From: Actinokineospora inagensis DSM 44258
GTDB lineage: Bacteria > Actinomycetota > Actinomycetes > Mycobacteriales > Pseudonocardiaceae
DNA: 64,000 nt
NCBI RefSeq assembly: GCF_000482865.1
Contig: NZ_AXWW01000045.1
Location: 7,547-71,546 of the forward strand
Direction of reading: 5' to 3'
The notes beneath the pieces are model-generated. The model was not told the DNA's origin. It did not search any database and saw nothing but the letters and a program-made list of their open reading frames with translations. This document shows, piece by piece, positions 58,012-64,000 of this stretch. Made by a program: the position numbers and the translations under genes. Each line of letters opens with the position of its first letter. The first letter of the stretch is position 1.

Positions 58012-58569
58012 ATGTCCGCGTCAAAAACCCAGTACTGGATCGGCTGGACCGTCGCGGCGCTGGTGACCGCCGCGGCCAGTGTCGCCGCCTCGGCCGTCGC
58101 CGCCGACGCCACCCCGTCGTACACCGCCCAGGCCCGCGCTGCCGGACTCAGCGCCGCGCAGGCCAAGGACCTGCAGGCCACCGTCAACGGCTACATCGCG
58201 AAGACCGGCGGCAGGCAGATCGCCGCCAACGAGATCGCGCTCGACGGCGCCACCATCTACGTGGCCTTACCGGGTGAGCGAACCGCCCGCGACCTCTCCA
58301 CCGGCAACCAACTGGCAGGCACCTGCAACTACCTGCACATGTGCGCCTGGCAGTACCCCAACTACACGGGCACCGTCATCGACATGTTCGCCTGCCACGA
58401 CTACGCCATCCCCTGGGCCGACCCTGGCTCGTGGATCAACAACCAACGCACCGGGACCGTCGCGCGCTTCTTGGACAGCAACCACAACACCGGCTGGAGC
58501 GACCCCGGCGCCTTCTCCCAGGACCCCAACGCGCCGTGGTGGTGGGTGTTCTGGATCCGCGACTGCTGA
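58012..58569 (+). CDS. Secreted protein with peptidase-inhibitor I36/beta-gamma-crystallin-like domain
   Basis: The 185-residue product has a signal peptide (WTVAALVTAAASVAASAVAADA). A mature C-terminal domain holds LHMCAWQYPNYTGTVIDMFACHDY, PWADPGSWINNQRTGTVARFLD and a Trp-rich end. The pattern resembles small extracellular I36-type inhibitors of actinomycetes with a conserved Cys pair. The inhibitor role is a guess from the fold class. An AGGAGG-type site precedes ATG 58012. Confidence 0.7.
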   Translation: MSASKTQYWIGWTVAALVTAAASVAASAVAADATPSYTAQARAAGLSAAQAKDLQATVNGYIAKTGGRQIAANEIALDGATIYVALPGERTARDLSTGNQLAGTCNYLHMCAWQYPNYTGTVIDMFACHDYAIPWADPGSWINNQRTGTVARFLDSNHNTGWSDPGAFSQDPNAPWWWVFWIRDC

Positions 58570-58665: not shown

Positions 58666-58750
58666 GGAGGATTCGCATAGTGGCCTAGTGCGCACGATTG
58701 GAAATCGTGTTGGGTTAAAACCCTCGCGGGTTCAAATCCCGCATCCTCCG
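58666..58750 (+). tRNA. tRNA-Ser(GGA)
   Basis: The 85-nt type II tRNA has acceptor GGAGGAT/ATCCTCC, discriminator G, anticodon loop TTGGAAA (anticodon GGA) in stem CACGA/TCGTG, a long variable arm and TTCAAAT T-loop. CCA is not encoded. The tRNA-linked repeat follows directly. Confidence 0.95.
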
Positions 58751-59121: not shown

Positions 59122-60381
59122 TTAGTGGAGGGTGGTGCGGAGGTCGGTGGCCAGGGTGGTCATGGTGGGGTCGACGGCTTCGGGGTGGTCTAGGGCGTGG
59201 TGGAGGCTTTCCTGGACGAGGTCGGTGATGCGGTCGTACTGGGGGGTTTGCACGCGGTCGCGGGCGTTGGTGACGGACTGGTAGAGGGCGTCGAGGTAGG
59301 GGAACTGGCTGCGCAGGACCGGGTCGGCGTAGAGGGCGCGGACGGTGGGGGCGTGGCCGCCGCGGGCGAAGAGGGTGCGTTGTTGGGTTTCGTCGGTGTA
59401 GAAGCGGATGAAGTCGCGGGCGGTCTGCTGGTGTTGGGAACACGGTGAGATCGCCAGGTTCCAGCCGCCGAGGGCACTGGGGCCGGGGAGTTGGGTGACA
59501 CCGACCCGGTTGACGACGGGGGAGTCGGGGGCGGTCAGCAGCGGGTACGCGTAGGGCCAGTTCCGCATGAACAGGGCGTTGCCGGACTGGAAGTCGGCGC
59601 GGCTGGACTCCTCGGTGAAATCGGTGGCGGTGCGCGGGATCCAGCCGTCGCGCAGGCCGCGGGCGAGCATCTCGATGCCGTTCTTCGCCTGCGGGGAGTC
59701 GATGACGATGGCGCCGTTGGCGGTCAGGTCGCCGCCGTACGCCCAGATCGCTTCCAGCGCGTTGACCGTTAGGCCCTCGTAGCGGGCGAGCTGGCCGATG
59801 TAACCGTCCATGTTGTACTTCGTGTGCAGGTCCTTGCTTATCCGCGTCAGGTCGTCCCACGTCTGCGGTGGTGCGATGTGTTCGCGGTCCAGGATGTCTT
59901 TGCGGTAGTAGAGGAGCCCTGCGTCCGTGCGGGCGGGGATCGCATAGAGGGTTCCGTCGACGGTAGCGTTGTCGACGGGGGTTTTGAGGAACTTGTCTAT
60001 GTCGAACTCGTTGGGGTCCAACGGGACCAGGTAGCCCGCGCGGGCGAACTCGGCCGTCCAGACCGAGTCCACCATCATCACGTCGTTGCAGCGCACGTGG
60101 GATCCGGGCAGCGCGCCGTCTTGGGCGGCGGCGACCAGGGAGGCCCGGTGCGCGTCCGACGACGGTGACTGCTCGATGAAGGTCACCTGCTCCTTGAACC
60201 CGTGCCGCAGGTTCCACTGTTCGACTAAACCCGCGACCTGCTTACCCAGCGTGGAATCGCGGCCGTCGACGAAGGTGATCGGTCCCCTGGCGTGGACCCG
60301 GTCGTCCTCCGGTCGGGTGGTCGCGCATGCGCCGCACGCGACGAAAACGACCGCGAGCGCCGTGGCCAGCAGTTTCCTCAT
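59122..60381 (-). CDS. Extracellular solute-binding lipoprotein (SBP family 1)
   Basis: The 419-residue protein has a signal sequence MRKLLATALAVVFVACGAC with a lipobox-like Cys16, though with Phe at -3. The ABC-type substrate-binding fold follows (GRDSTLGKQVAGLVEQWNLRHGF, LVPLDPNEFDIDKFL, LYAIPARTDAGLLYYRKDIL, WDDLTRISKDLHTKYNMDGYIGQL in parts). It resembles sugar-binding proteins. No permease or ATPase gene is adjacent. It overlaps the 787-residue gene upstream (ATGA), so both are made together, and it may serve as a sensor partner rather than a transport subunit. Confidence 0.85.
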   Translation of the reverse strand: MRKLLATALAVVFVACGACATTRPEDDRVHARGPITFVDGRDSTLGKQVAGLVEQWNLRHGFKEQVTFIEQSPSSDAHRASLVAAAQDGALPGSHVRCNDVMMVDSVWTAEFARAGYLVPLDPNEFDIDKFLKTPVDNATVDGTLYAIPARTDAGLLYYRKDILDREHIAPPQTWDDLTRISKDLHTKYNMDGYIGQLARYEGLTVNALEAIWAYGGDLTANGAIVIDSPQAKNGIEMLARGLRDGWIPRTATDFTEESSRADFQSGNALFMRNWPYAYPLLTAPDSPVVNRVGVTQLPGPSALGGWNLAISPCSQHQQTARDFIRFYTDETQQRTLFARGGHAPTVRALYADPVLRSQFPYLDALYQSVTNARDRVQTPQYDRITDLVQESLHHALDHPEAVDPTMTTLATDLRTTLH

Positions 60382-62741
60382 TGCGTCCCCCACAGTTGTC
60401 CCGCCACCTGGTCCAGCACGGCCGTGATGCCCTGGTCGAGGTCGGTGAGGTCGACGCAGTCGCCGCCGGTGCCCCTGGCGACGGCGTCGAGCCCGGTCGC
60501 ATGGCACCGCGCTGTCTGCACGGACACGGCCAGCACCTTGGTGGCCTGGTCGGTCGGTGCGGCGATGTCGGTTTGCAGCGTCGGTAGGTCTGTCTGGCTC
60601 ACGTCCGCGGTAGCGCCGTCGGTGATGAGGACCAGCAGGCTGCTACTGGTCGCGGATGACGCTGTCCGCAGTCGACTCACGCCCGCTCTTACGGCGTTGT
60701 ACACATCGGCCTTGGTTTTGGACGCCGGTAGGTCTACCCGCGCCGCGAGCCTGACGGCGTTGGCCTGACCGGGGCTCAACGGCACCAGATCGCGCTCGGT
60801 GTCGCTGAAGGTCAGCAGGCCGACGTCGTCGGTCGGGTTGAACAGCGCGGTCAGCCTGCGGACCAGTTCGGTGCTCGCCTGCAGCCGGGTCCCCGACCCG
60901 AACGGTGTTCCCATCGTCGCCGAGGTGTCGACAGCGAACAGCACCCGCGCGTGCTTGCTCCCGCTCGTCGCCGCGGCCTGGACCTGGTCGAACGCCGAGT
61001 CCGGGGTGATCTGGAGCGCGGTCGGCAGCTCCGGGATGGGCCCGTCGAACCGGCCGACGTGCCCCTGCGGGTCGCGGAAACCGTTGAACCGCAGCGTTTC
61101 CGCCGACTGCCTGCCGCGCAGGTAGTCGTAGAACCGGTCGATCACGGCGGCGCGTTGCCGGTTCTCCGGTCGGTCAGTCCACCGGACGACCACGAACGGG
61201 TAGTCCTGGACCGGTGTGCCCAACCGTGGGTAGAGCGGGTCGAGCGCGGTGGGCGGGGTCGACGTCGTCGAGCAGTGGCTGCCCAGTTGAGCGCCCCGGT
61301 TGTAGTCGATGACCGCCTTCTCCGACACCAGCGCGGCCCGGAGCTGCTGCGGGTTGTTGCGCAGTTGGCAGAGCAGGTCGCCGCTGTCCATGCCCGCCGC
61401 GTAGGGCATGTCGTCCTCGGCCTCGTGCACCACCCGGGGGGTCGTCGGCATCGCGAACGTGGTCGAGGTGAGCTGGGAGTTGCCCAGTCGGTGCTGGTAG
61501 ATGGCGATGGTGCCGAGCAGTCCCGCGCTGGAGGTGCGCGGGTCCGGCCGGATGAAGCCGACGTCGCGGCTGTGGTGGGCGATGACGTCCCAACTGAACC
61601 GCTGTTGGTCGGGTCGCAGGTAGTTGGCCATGTCCGGCGGGATGGCCAGCACCAGCGGCGACTGGGCGATGCCGGGCCGTGGCTCCAGGTCGACCTCGCT
61701 GCTCGCGGTCAGCCGTTCCCGCACGTGGTCGATGTCGGCGGTCGAGTCCGGCACCCACACGTGTGGTTCCGGGCCGTGGTCGCGCAGGTCGTCGCGACCG
61801 GACCAGCCGCGGCCGAGGGCGTCGACCGCGCCGTCGTAGGTGTCGGCCACCACGAGCAGCCGGGCGGGCCTGCAGCCGCTGTCGTTGTCCCGGATCTCCT
61901 CGTGCTCGAAGTCCAGCGCGAGTTGCCGCAGCGCGGGCGCCATCTCGGTTGAGGTCAACACGTTGAGCTGCACCGGATTCGCGCACTTTGTTTCGGGTGG
62001 CGTCGCTCCGGCGAGGATGTCCGTCATCGGAACCAGCAGCAAGAACACCGTTAGGACTACCAGCTCCCACCGGGGCTTGGACATGTGCGGCGTCGGTAGC
62101 TTCAACTGTGGAATCCGGATTACCGGCCTCGGTATAGACCGCTTCCGCGTGGATCGCGGCGCGGCAGGGTAATCCGGCGTGCAGATCCACGCGGTGGTCG
62201 CGGTTTCCTTCTGCCGCACCGCGGAAGGCTTGTAGATGCCCGGGTTGGCCGCGGGCTGGTGTTTGACGACGTGCTCGTAGAACCAGTCCGAGACCGCTAG
62301 CGCCAACACACCGGGCGACGCGGATAGGGCGTCCCGCAACGGGTCGCAGTCCAGCAGCCGGAAGGCGTGGTTCAAGTCCGTGCCGTGCTTGCCATTGTCG
62401 TCGGTGCCAACCTCGCCCGCGTGGATCGCGACCTTCAGCCGGATCTGGGTTTCCGGCCCGTGGTCGGCGTTGTGCTCGCGCAGCGCCGCTGCCAACTCGT
62501 GCGGTAGGGACGCCACCAATTCGGACTTGGCGACGTCGGTGAGCAGCGCGAAGAGGCCGTCGCCGCGGTCCTCGTGGTAGCCCCACGGGACTCCCGCGCG
62601 GTCGAAGGCGTGGTGGAGGGCGGCGTAAAGGCCGTCCCGCACGACTTTCTGGTGCCGGTCAGTCCGCCGCACGTCGCCGTACCGCTCGACGTCGACGGCG
62701 AAGATGCTCGTGTGCTGGTCCTCGGGCTGGGACACCGCCAC
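60378..62741 (-). CDS. Fusion protein: nucleotide-cyclase-like, membrane helix, substrate-binding and VWA domains
   Basis: The 787-residue protein has four parts. Residues 10-190 resemble a class III nucleotide cyclase homology domain: Asp17 (SIFAVDVERYGD), Asp61 (HEDRGDGLFAL), Asn124 and Arg128 (TDLNHAFRLLD). Residues 225-245 form one membrane helix. Residues 255-560 resemble a bacterial extracellular substrate-binding domain (LVLAIPPDMANYL, YPFVVVRWTD). Residues 598-780 form a von Willebrand A domain with a MIDAS-like DTSAT at 605 and ITDGA at 706. The cyclase part would be cytosolic and the rest outside. A ligand-sensing role is inferred; no transporter is nearby. Confidence 0.8.
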   Translation of the reverse strand: MAVSQPEDQHTSIFAVDVERYGDVRRTDRHQKVVRDGLYAALHHAFDRAGVPWGYHEDRGDGLFALLTDVAKSELVASLPHELAAALREHNADHGPETQIRLKVAIHAGEVGTDDNGKHGTDLNHAFRLLDCDPLRDALSASPGVLALAVSDWFYEHVVKHQPAANPGIYKPSAVRQKETATTAWICTPDYPAAPRSTRKRSIPRPVIRIPQLKLPTPHMSKPRWELVVLTVFLLLVPMTDILAGATPPETKCANPVQLNVLTSTEMAPALRQLALDFEHEEIRDNDSGCRPARLLVVADTYDGAVDALGRGWSGRDDLRDHGPEPHVWVPDSTADIDHVRERLTASSEVDLEPRPGIAQSPLVLAIPPDMANYLRPDQQRFSWDVIAHHSRDVGFIRPDPRTSSAGLLGTIAIYQHRLGNSQLTSTTFAMPTTPRVVHEAEDDMPYAAGMDSGDLLCQLRNNPQQLRAALVSEKAVIDYNRGAQLGSHCSTTSTPPTALDPLYPRLGTPVQDYPFVVVRWTDRPENRQRAAVIDRFYDYLRGRQSAETLRFNGFRDPQGHVGRFDGPIPELPTALQITPDSAFDQVQAAATSGSKHARVLFAVDTSATMGTPFGSGTRLQASTELVRRLTALFNPTDDVGLLTFSDTERDLVPLSPGQANAVRLAARVDLPASKTKADVYNAVRAGVSRLRTASSATSSSLLVLITDGATADVSQTDLPTLQTDIAAPTDQATKVLAVSVQTARCHATGLDAVARGTGGDCVDLTDLDQGITAVLDQVAGQLWGTQ

Positions 62742-62921
62742 GCTCCCCGTGCTCGCCTCAGGGCGTACAGGGTACCGCTGTCCGGGTTGGTCACATGACC
62801 TGAATCACACCGCAGGCGCCGGTTGTCCTTGAGCTGTCCGCCCTGACCGGCGTTTACCCAGGCGGGGGCCTTGTCCGCCCCGATGGCGGTGCCGCGTACC
62901 CGGTCCCGCTACACTGAACGC

Positions 62922-63007
62922 GGACCCCGTGCGGTGTTTACCTCGCGAACCTCCCCAGGGCCGGAAGGCAGCAAGGATAAGCGGGCTCTGGCAGGTGCGC
63001 GGGGTCC
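62922..63007 (+). ncRNA. ffs: Signal recognition particle RNA (small type)
   Basis: GGACCCC at 62922 pairs with GGGGTCC at 63001-63007. The apical part has the conserved GGAA tetraloop and asymmetric loop: CAGGGCCGGAAGGCAGCAAGG at 62956-62976 in two pieces. This is the bacterial 4.5S-type SRP RNA. Ends are estimated from the outer stem; about 86-97 nt. Confidence 0.9.
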
Positions 63008-63009
63008 CC

Positions 63010-64000
<991 letters not shown>

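Follow-up and report, generated by a model that had tools for sequence, protein, structure and literature searches.

A predicted cell-surface receptor with a cyclase domain and a lipoprotein partner in Actinokineospora inagensis and its relatives

The receptor locus and its product

We analyzed a 64,000-nucleotide stretch of the Actinokineospora inagensis DSM 44258 genome (contig NZ_AXWW01000045.1, positions 7,547 to 71,546; hereafter the window), in which two overlapping genes on the minus strand encode a putative membrane receptor and a solute-binding lipoprotein, its presumed partner (Table 1). The receptor gene (60378-62741) is a single open frame of 787 codons counted from the first GTG; a second GTG at 62735 is the likelier start, because the orthologues begin at residue 3. 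Its product consists of an N-terminal class III cyclase domain, one predicted membrane helix, a solute-binding SBP_bac_11 domain and a VWA-like domain. A first-pass annotation, made from the sequence alone, had proposed this arrangement in one polypeptide, and Pfam, profile searches and hydropathy agree on it. Pfam places SBP_bac_11 at residues 259-556 (E 2.4e-11), VWA_2 at 600-709 (E 3.9e-10) and VWA at 600-743; residues 1-200 have no match in Pfam, PF00211 included, and NCBIfam gives no relevant match for the N-terminal domain. PADLOC matched neither the receptor nor the partner protein, and a Pycsar cyclase as the identity of the receptor cyclase was set aside for lack of such a match.

The only strongly hydrophobic segment of the receptor spans residues 227-245 (Kyte-Doolittle hydropathy 2.30, versus 1.07 for the runner-up), and the 21 residues preceding the helix include four Lys or Arg and one Asp or Glu. 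Six cysteines of the ectodomain, Cys253, Cys290, Cys458 and Cys490 among them, are present in each of the six distinct Actinokineospora copies, and five of the six are kept in 22 further fusions (the Cys490 position is gapped in 21 of them). Before the helix, Cys132 is not kept and Cys187 is found in four of the six Actinokineospora copies. Cysteines that are kept outside and not inside fit outer disulphides and a reducing cytosol. Many of the loci compared here and below come from related genomes, and the counts are not independent.

The VWA-like domain, recognized by Pfam as the first-pass annotation had stated, has a degenerate metal motif and is unlikely to bind in a metal-dependent way. 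The DxSxS motif is exact in none of the six distinct Actinokineospora copies (DTSAT in the window), and this stretch is shortened in 21 of the 22 further fusions aligned. A metal-dependent role for this domain was set aside on these grounds.

Table 1. Features of the receptor locus, in window coordinates
Feature	Position	Strand	Basis
Receptor gene, fusion of cyclase domain, transmembrane helix, SBP_bac_11 and VWA	60378..62741	-	Open frame and Pfam; 787 aa (amino acids) from GTG 62741, 785 aa from GTG 62735
Class III nucleotidyl cyclase domain, residues ~10-192; D17, E57, D61, G117, N124, R128	62166..62714	-	Profiles and AlphaFold2 model
Membrane helix, the sole one, residues ~226-247	62001..62066	-	Hydropathy prediction
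SBP_bac_11 solute-binding domain, residues 259-556, predicted outside	61074..61967	-	Pfam
VWA-like domain, residues 600-743, degenerate metal motif	60513..60944	-	Pfam and alignment
SBP_bac_1 lipoprotein, 419 aa, partner gene, 4 bp overlap with receptor gene	59122..60381	-	Pfam and lipobox-like start
Signal recognition particle (SRP) RNA gene (RF00169), bordering the site of the receptor and partner pair	62919..63013	+	RNA family match

Fold and active site of the N-terminal domain

Profile comparison and structure modeling show that the N-terminal domain has the class III cyclase fold. As a single sequence it gave only a weak match in the PDB (E 0.35). A profile of 21 relatives aligned over 165 columns (probability 95.6, E 1.2e-8) with 18 PF00211-type domains from related genomes, a reference set without one row (L227) that has a stop at its end. 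When a profile of 42 relatives was searched against the PDB, 16 distinct sequences matched at E <=1 and 11 of these are cyclases. The nearest were 3mr7 (2.1e-9), 5d0g (1.8e-7), Ma1120 of Mycobacterium avium (4wp8, 4wp9 and 4wp3, 1.3e-5 to 1.7e-5) and the Chlamydomonas guanylyl cyclase 3et6 (2.2e-5); 5d0g is deposited as 'Cyclase' and is presumably a form of Ma1120. Chains of the natriuretic peptide receptor matched at E 3.8e-4. The non-cyclases comprise three recA chains (9e-4 to 0.015), for which no stretch passed alone, and two others (0.49 and 0.62). AlphaFold2 modeled the domain with a mean predicted local distance difference test score (pLDDT) of 94.9 and a predicted template modeling score (pTM) of 0.89, so that profiles and model both uphold the cyclase-like domain of the first-pass annotation.

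Five active-site positions, D17, E57, D61, G117 and R128, are identical in all 32 fused copies read (six from Actinokineospora, L063 and L071, 22 more, and L295 and L303). D61 is invariant among 70 domains of the wider family, and D17 and R128 each occur in 69 of them. The specificity residues had first been called less clear; the pair is now read as Glu57-Gly117 throughout the 32 fused copies. In the wider family the Lys position holds E in 30 domains, Q in 23, A in 7 and R in 5, and the Asp position holds G in 62. Phe127, a Phe in 31 of the 32 fused copies, sits at the position of a Tyr in the bacterial guanylyl cyclase Cya2. In the part of PMC4215837 consulted, guanylyl cyclases are described as having Glu in place of Lys with a varied second specificity residue, and Cya2 as having a Glu-Gly pair and a Tyr that favours guanylyl cyclase activity. 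Together, E57, G117 and Phe127 predict that the cyclase, if active, prefers GTP, and judged by the Glu-Gly pair its product would most likely be cyclic GMP (cGMP). The receptor cyclase thus resembles Cya2 in its fold and Glu-Gly pair, with Phe127 in place of the Tyr, and differs from it in being, with activity predicted, part of a receptor with binding-protein folds outside. Ma1120 differs from the window cyclase in its Lys-Asp pair, of the ATP type, and in an Ala at the position of the transition-state Asn (PMC4215837, same part).

A conserved lipoprotein partner and a variable genomic site

The partner protein matches SBP_bac_1 (E 5.3e-28) and has a lipobox-like N-terminus; its nearest solved structures are binding proteins of the maltose/trehalose type. 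The partner gene lies directly downstream in 32 of the 32 fusions examined (six Actinokineospora, L063 and L071, and 24 newly fetched), and a lipobox pattern is present in 23 of the 24 partner proteins at the newly fetched loci. Genes for a MalF/MalG-like permease were found in none of 37 receptor and partner cassettes within four genes, to the extent that the stretches cover them, nor at the 24 further fusion loci outside Actinokineospora. The first-pass annotation had described the overlapping lipoprotein gene and the lack of a permease for the window; the orthologues examined likewise do not sit beside ABC permeases. At three loci where the partner profile matched away from any SBP-VWA gene (L205, L234, L235), permeases were present at two. 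Pairing was judged by adjacency only, because the partner profile (394 genomes) drifts to ordinary sugar-binding proteins.

A family search matched 94 of 390 Pseudonocardiaceae genomes at E 1e-42 or better. By inspection of the matched rows, at least 31 of the 390 carry a fusion of the cyclase to the ectodomain, in four genera (g1, 6 genomes; g5, 23; g192, 1; g204, 1), a lower bound because only two candidates per genome were scored. We fetched 24 of the 25 fusion loci outside Actinokineospora; the other (G150) corresponds to L063. In the 22 loci of genus g5 (L297-L318), a same-strand gene for a protein of 915-919 aa precedes the cyclase fusion in every case and the VWA part is shortened; the start of the 915-919 aa protein resembles what we take to be pyruvate dehydrogenase E1.

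The full fusion is present in 6 of 16 Actinokineospora genomes and adjoins the SRP RNA motif in all six. The motif was also found in ten Actinokineospora stretches without the fusion, where other genes adjoin it (in L286 the contig ends early). A luciferase-like monooxygenase gene (Pfam) is a neighbour in all 16 genomes and lies upstream of the receptor, beyond the SRP RNA. The SRP RNA borders a variable site (L060, L273-L276, L285-L294) that holds the receptor pair in 6 of the 16 genomes and other genes elsewhere: in L290 numerous small genes of phage or plasmid appearance, and in L285 and L273 a trio that presumably represents radical-SAM genes. Elsewhere in the window, a small secreted-looking protein (58012-58569, plus strand), whose match to peptidase inhibitor family I36 falls short of the threshold, adjoins a tRNA gene (58666-58750).

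Different cytosolic modules on one kind of ectodomain

SBP-VWA proteins are common and were detected in 222 of 394 genomes of the class (E 1e-15). In L040-L059, which were taken from the match list before the partner was known and not in strict score order, the partner follows 5 of 21 SBP-VWA genes, namely two caspase fusions and three proteins with two or three helices; the other 16, all plain one-helix proteins, lack it. These loci and the 24 newly fetched ones, which were picked by their receptor match alone, are less biased than L171-L191, which were mostly chosen for closeness of both matches. In a tree of 65 SBP-VWA proteins, 30 without a partner are split from 35 with a partner by a branch with a Shimodaira-Hasegawa-like approximate likelihood ratio test (SH-aLRT) support of 99, many of the rows having been chosen for adjacency. 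Domains shorter than about 450 residues were left out of this tree, which removed L189 and L190, and the trees do not include L274 and L275, whose contigs are already represented by L038 (Actinokineospora diospyrosa) and L039 (A. terrae). An alignment that mixed full-length and fragment rows was discarded, as its consensus seemed to set binding-protein rows on the cyclase.

Pfam identified several other N-terminal modules in partnered receptors: a caspase in L049, L055, L175 and L206 (below cut-off in L177), a trypsin in L173, L186 and L207 (below cut-off in L174), and EAD1 in L172; L176 has no recognized module. A small gene upstream of caspase-type receptors matched EACC1 in three of the five loci tested, each just below the curated cut-off of 23.6 bits (22.9 and 23.4 in L049 and L055, 21.0 in L179), and gave no match in L175 and L177. 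The small upstream gene beside trypsin receptors matched Trypco2 or Trypco1 well above cut-off in both loci tested (L173 and L207). We suggest from these comparisons that the ectodomain and the partner form a receptor chassis with exchangeable output (cyclase, caspase, trypsin or EAD1), because the same ectodomain and partner either carry other modules or adjoin separate cyclase and CRP-type genes.

Six SBP-VWA proteins have a long N-terminal part and no partner (L192, L197, L198, L202, L203, L210). One of them, encoded on contig C3 of the window's own genome (L192), joins a Ser/Thr protein kinase via a helix to the SBP-VWA part; the long N-terminal parts of L202 and L203 match no module in Pfam. 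In L041, L043 and L046, plain SBP-VWA genes lie between ClgR-like and TetR-like genes on one side and genes for a small membrane protein and a PspA-like protein on the other, an order that we take to resemble the mycobacterial envelope stress operon.

Cyclic-nucleotide regulators near related cyclases

In three genera of family f31 (L187, L188, L191), an SBP-VWA and partner pair has as divergent neighbours a CRP-type gene (PF00027 and HTH_Crp_2) and a cyclase gene of its own. In four genomes of genus g3 (L047, L050, L053, L059), a plain SBP-VWA gene is followed in the same orientation by CRP and cyclase genes, with two small genes in between; Pfam confirmed the CRP gene in L047. Overall, 30 of 53 stand-alone cyclase relatives have a CRP gene no more than two genes away, and none of 19 large cyclase relatives does; among the remaining genes of these loci the count is 2 of 1178. 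The window's own genome has one CRP-cyclase pair, on contig C45.

A recurrent gene cluster also emerged, with a CRP gene (divergent in some loci), a cyclase gene, a gene for a protein of ~650-820 aa and usually one for a protein of ~200-500 aa (L244, L253, L256, L257, L259-L263, L266-L268, L278, L280-L284). Five accompanying proteins of this type (L243, L256, L259) have no Pfam match save a weak nSTAND3/HEAT match in one from L243, a locus with no CRP gene nearby. The cluster looks like an undescribed system controlled by a cyclic nucleotide. In L231 (4841-6313), a cyclic-nucleotide-binding domain and a cyclase domain occur in one protein.

Relation to known systems

Kaur et al. 2020 (PMC7159879, part consulted) present the EACC1 system, their 'System 4', as an actinobacterial conflict system linked to the membrane. 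Its N-terminal caspase, which in fewer cases is a cyclic nucleotide monophosphate (cNMP) cyclase, is joined to variable C-terminal parts, among which are a MoxR-independent vWA and transmembrane helices that come with a PBP domain. The window receptor is likewise membrane-linked, with an N-terminal cNMP cyclase and a C-terminal part of the variable kind. The published system is a precedent for the layout, for which the first-pass annotation had known no characterized example. The window locus differs in having an SBP_bac_1 partner gene and no EACC1 gene, the only EACC1 match of the genome being on another contig (C4). The terms 'solute-binding' and 'substrate-binding' have no occurrence in the main text of PMC7159879, where the partner is thus unmentioned under these terms, and they are absent from PMC10907252. 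The window pair is related to, and not a member of, the published EACC1 system. Literature searches returned papers of the Kaur type, PMC10907252 and papers on other topics, and none of the entries showed a description of the cyclase-helix-SBP-VWA layout. Within these searches and the main texts covered, neither the partner gene nor the swapping of modules on a shared ectodomain pair was met.

The natriuretic peptide receptor and other membrane guanylyl cyclases of animals have an outer binding-protein-like fold and one helix, and their C-terminal cyclase is preceded by a kinase-homology part. The window receptor shares the outside binding-protein fold, the single helix and the cytosolic cyclase, which matched the natriuretic peptide receptor in the profile search. 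It differs in that its cyclase is N-terminal, in reversed order, that Pfam finds no kinase in it, and that it has a separate lipoprotein partner. ABC sugar importers with binding proteins of the LpqY/MalE type resemble the window pair in the family and the nearest solved relatives of the lipoprotein, and differ from it in the permease, which is missing beside the receptor and partner cassettes checked.

Interpretation and alternatives

On balance, we favour the interpretation that the two genes encode one two-protein cell-surface receptor with a cyclase output, most likely of the GTP type. As a binding protein of the sugar type released from a transport role, the lipoprotein would bind an outside ligand jointly with the SBP/VWA ectodomain. 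Binding would act across the single helix on how two receptor chains pair, and the cytosolic cyclase domains would thereby form or break a shared active site. Elsewhere in the cell, a CRP-type regulator or some other effector that binds nucleotides may sense the resulting cyclic nucleotide, most likely cGMP. The trigger could be a nutrient, cell-wall material or an invader. The coupling of outside binding to a cytosolic module, already suggested at first pass, gains support from the constant partner, the missing permeases and the exchange of modules. It also survives the refutation conditions named with it at first pass, since the N-terminal part does match the cyclase fold and the orthologues examined have no ABC permeases beside them.

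Several observations weigh against a catalytic receptor linked to CRP. The first-pass annotation placed the two metal Asp, the Asn and the Arg correctly (D17, D61, N124, R128), and the Asp and Arg hold throughout the fused copies, but the transition-state Asn does so in only 7 of 32. Among the Actinokineospora copies it is N in five of six and D in L276; elsewhere the position holds V in L063, L071 and L295, T in L303 and, among the 22 others, N in 2, T in 10, V in 9 and I in 1. Of the 70 wider-family domains, 25 have N here, 24 V, 10 I, 7 D, 3 T and 1 E. This loss is not decisive, because Ma1120 is active with Ala at this position; introducing Asn there abolished its activity (PMC4215837, same part). 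A CRP gene was found beside none of 10 fused cyclases (two of them duplicates), and none was flagged at 22 more. In the cyclase tree (domains shorter than about 150 residues left out; domain starts of the window and L175 copies set by hand), the window copy groups with copies linked to STAND components, NB-ARC, AAA, VMAP and EAD2, and the CRP-linked cyclases fall in other clades. The CRP link therefore supports the family and not the window copy directly. The fused cyclases need two changes on this tree, and a single origin may still be possible; cyclases of different clades paired with the same kind of ectodomain argue for a real coupling. Finally, several cyclases fused to vWA components are given as inactive in the part of Kaur et al. 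2020 (PMC7159879) consulted.

These same points make up the case for the chief rival, in which the cyclase domain is no longer an enzyme and would serve as a nucleotide-binding adaptor to a STAND/VMAP/EAD conflict network, with effector assembly or recruitment upon surface attack as its output. Its nearest tree relatives are fused to just such components, the Asn is lost in 25 of the 32 fused copies, inactive cyclases are on record in such systems and no CRP gene was seen beside the fused copies. However, a pure adaptor would have no obvious need for the near-invariant metal Asp and Arg or for the uniform E57 and G117, and we regard this explanation as unlikely. We rate somewhat higher, though still as doubtful, an EACC1-like membrane suicide system whose caspase is replaced by a cyclase, in which the ectodomain would sense an invader and a nucleotide signal would lead to death or dormancy; it overlaps with the receptor interpretation and differs in purpose. 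The EACC1-like gene upstream of caspase versions points this way, as do the swap of cyclase for caspase and the PBP domains described in PMC7159879 (part consulted) and the patchy presence at one variable site in 6 of 16 Actinokineospora genomes, whereas EACC1 is absent from the window locus and neither protein has a PADLOC match. Plain sugar uptake, with both binding proteins feeding a permease encoded elsewhere and the cyclase incidental, would suit a lipoprotein closest to maltose/trehalose-type transport proteins; it is highly improbable given that no permease lies beside the cassettes checked and that all 32 fusions retain the partner while relatives differ in their cytosolic module.

Returning to the two-protein receptor, a more specific and tentative proposal, to which we give less than even weight, is that of a bacterial receptor guanylyl cyclase: a one-helix protein whose binding-protein-fold ectodomain and lipoprotein gate cGMP synthesis, a reversed counterpart of the natriuretic peptide receptor, and one member of an actinobacterial chassis with cyclase, caspase, trypsin or adaptor output. 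The Glu-Gly pair yields a sharp prediction, GTP to cGMP, for bacteria, in which a review title cited in PMC4215837 (part consulted) speaks of 'a dearth of guanylylcyclases'. The conserved partner protein would offer a handle for finding the ligand. With the same outer sensor pair joined to different inner outputs, the sensing half of predicted immune or stress systems would become recognizable, and testable apart from the effectors.

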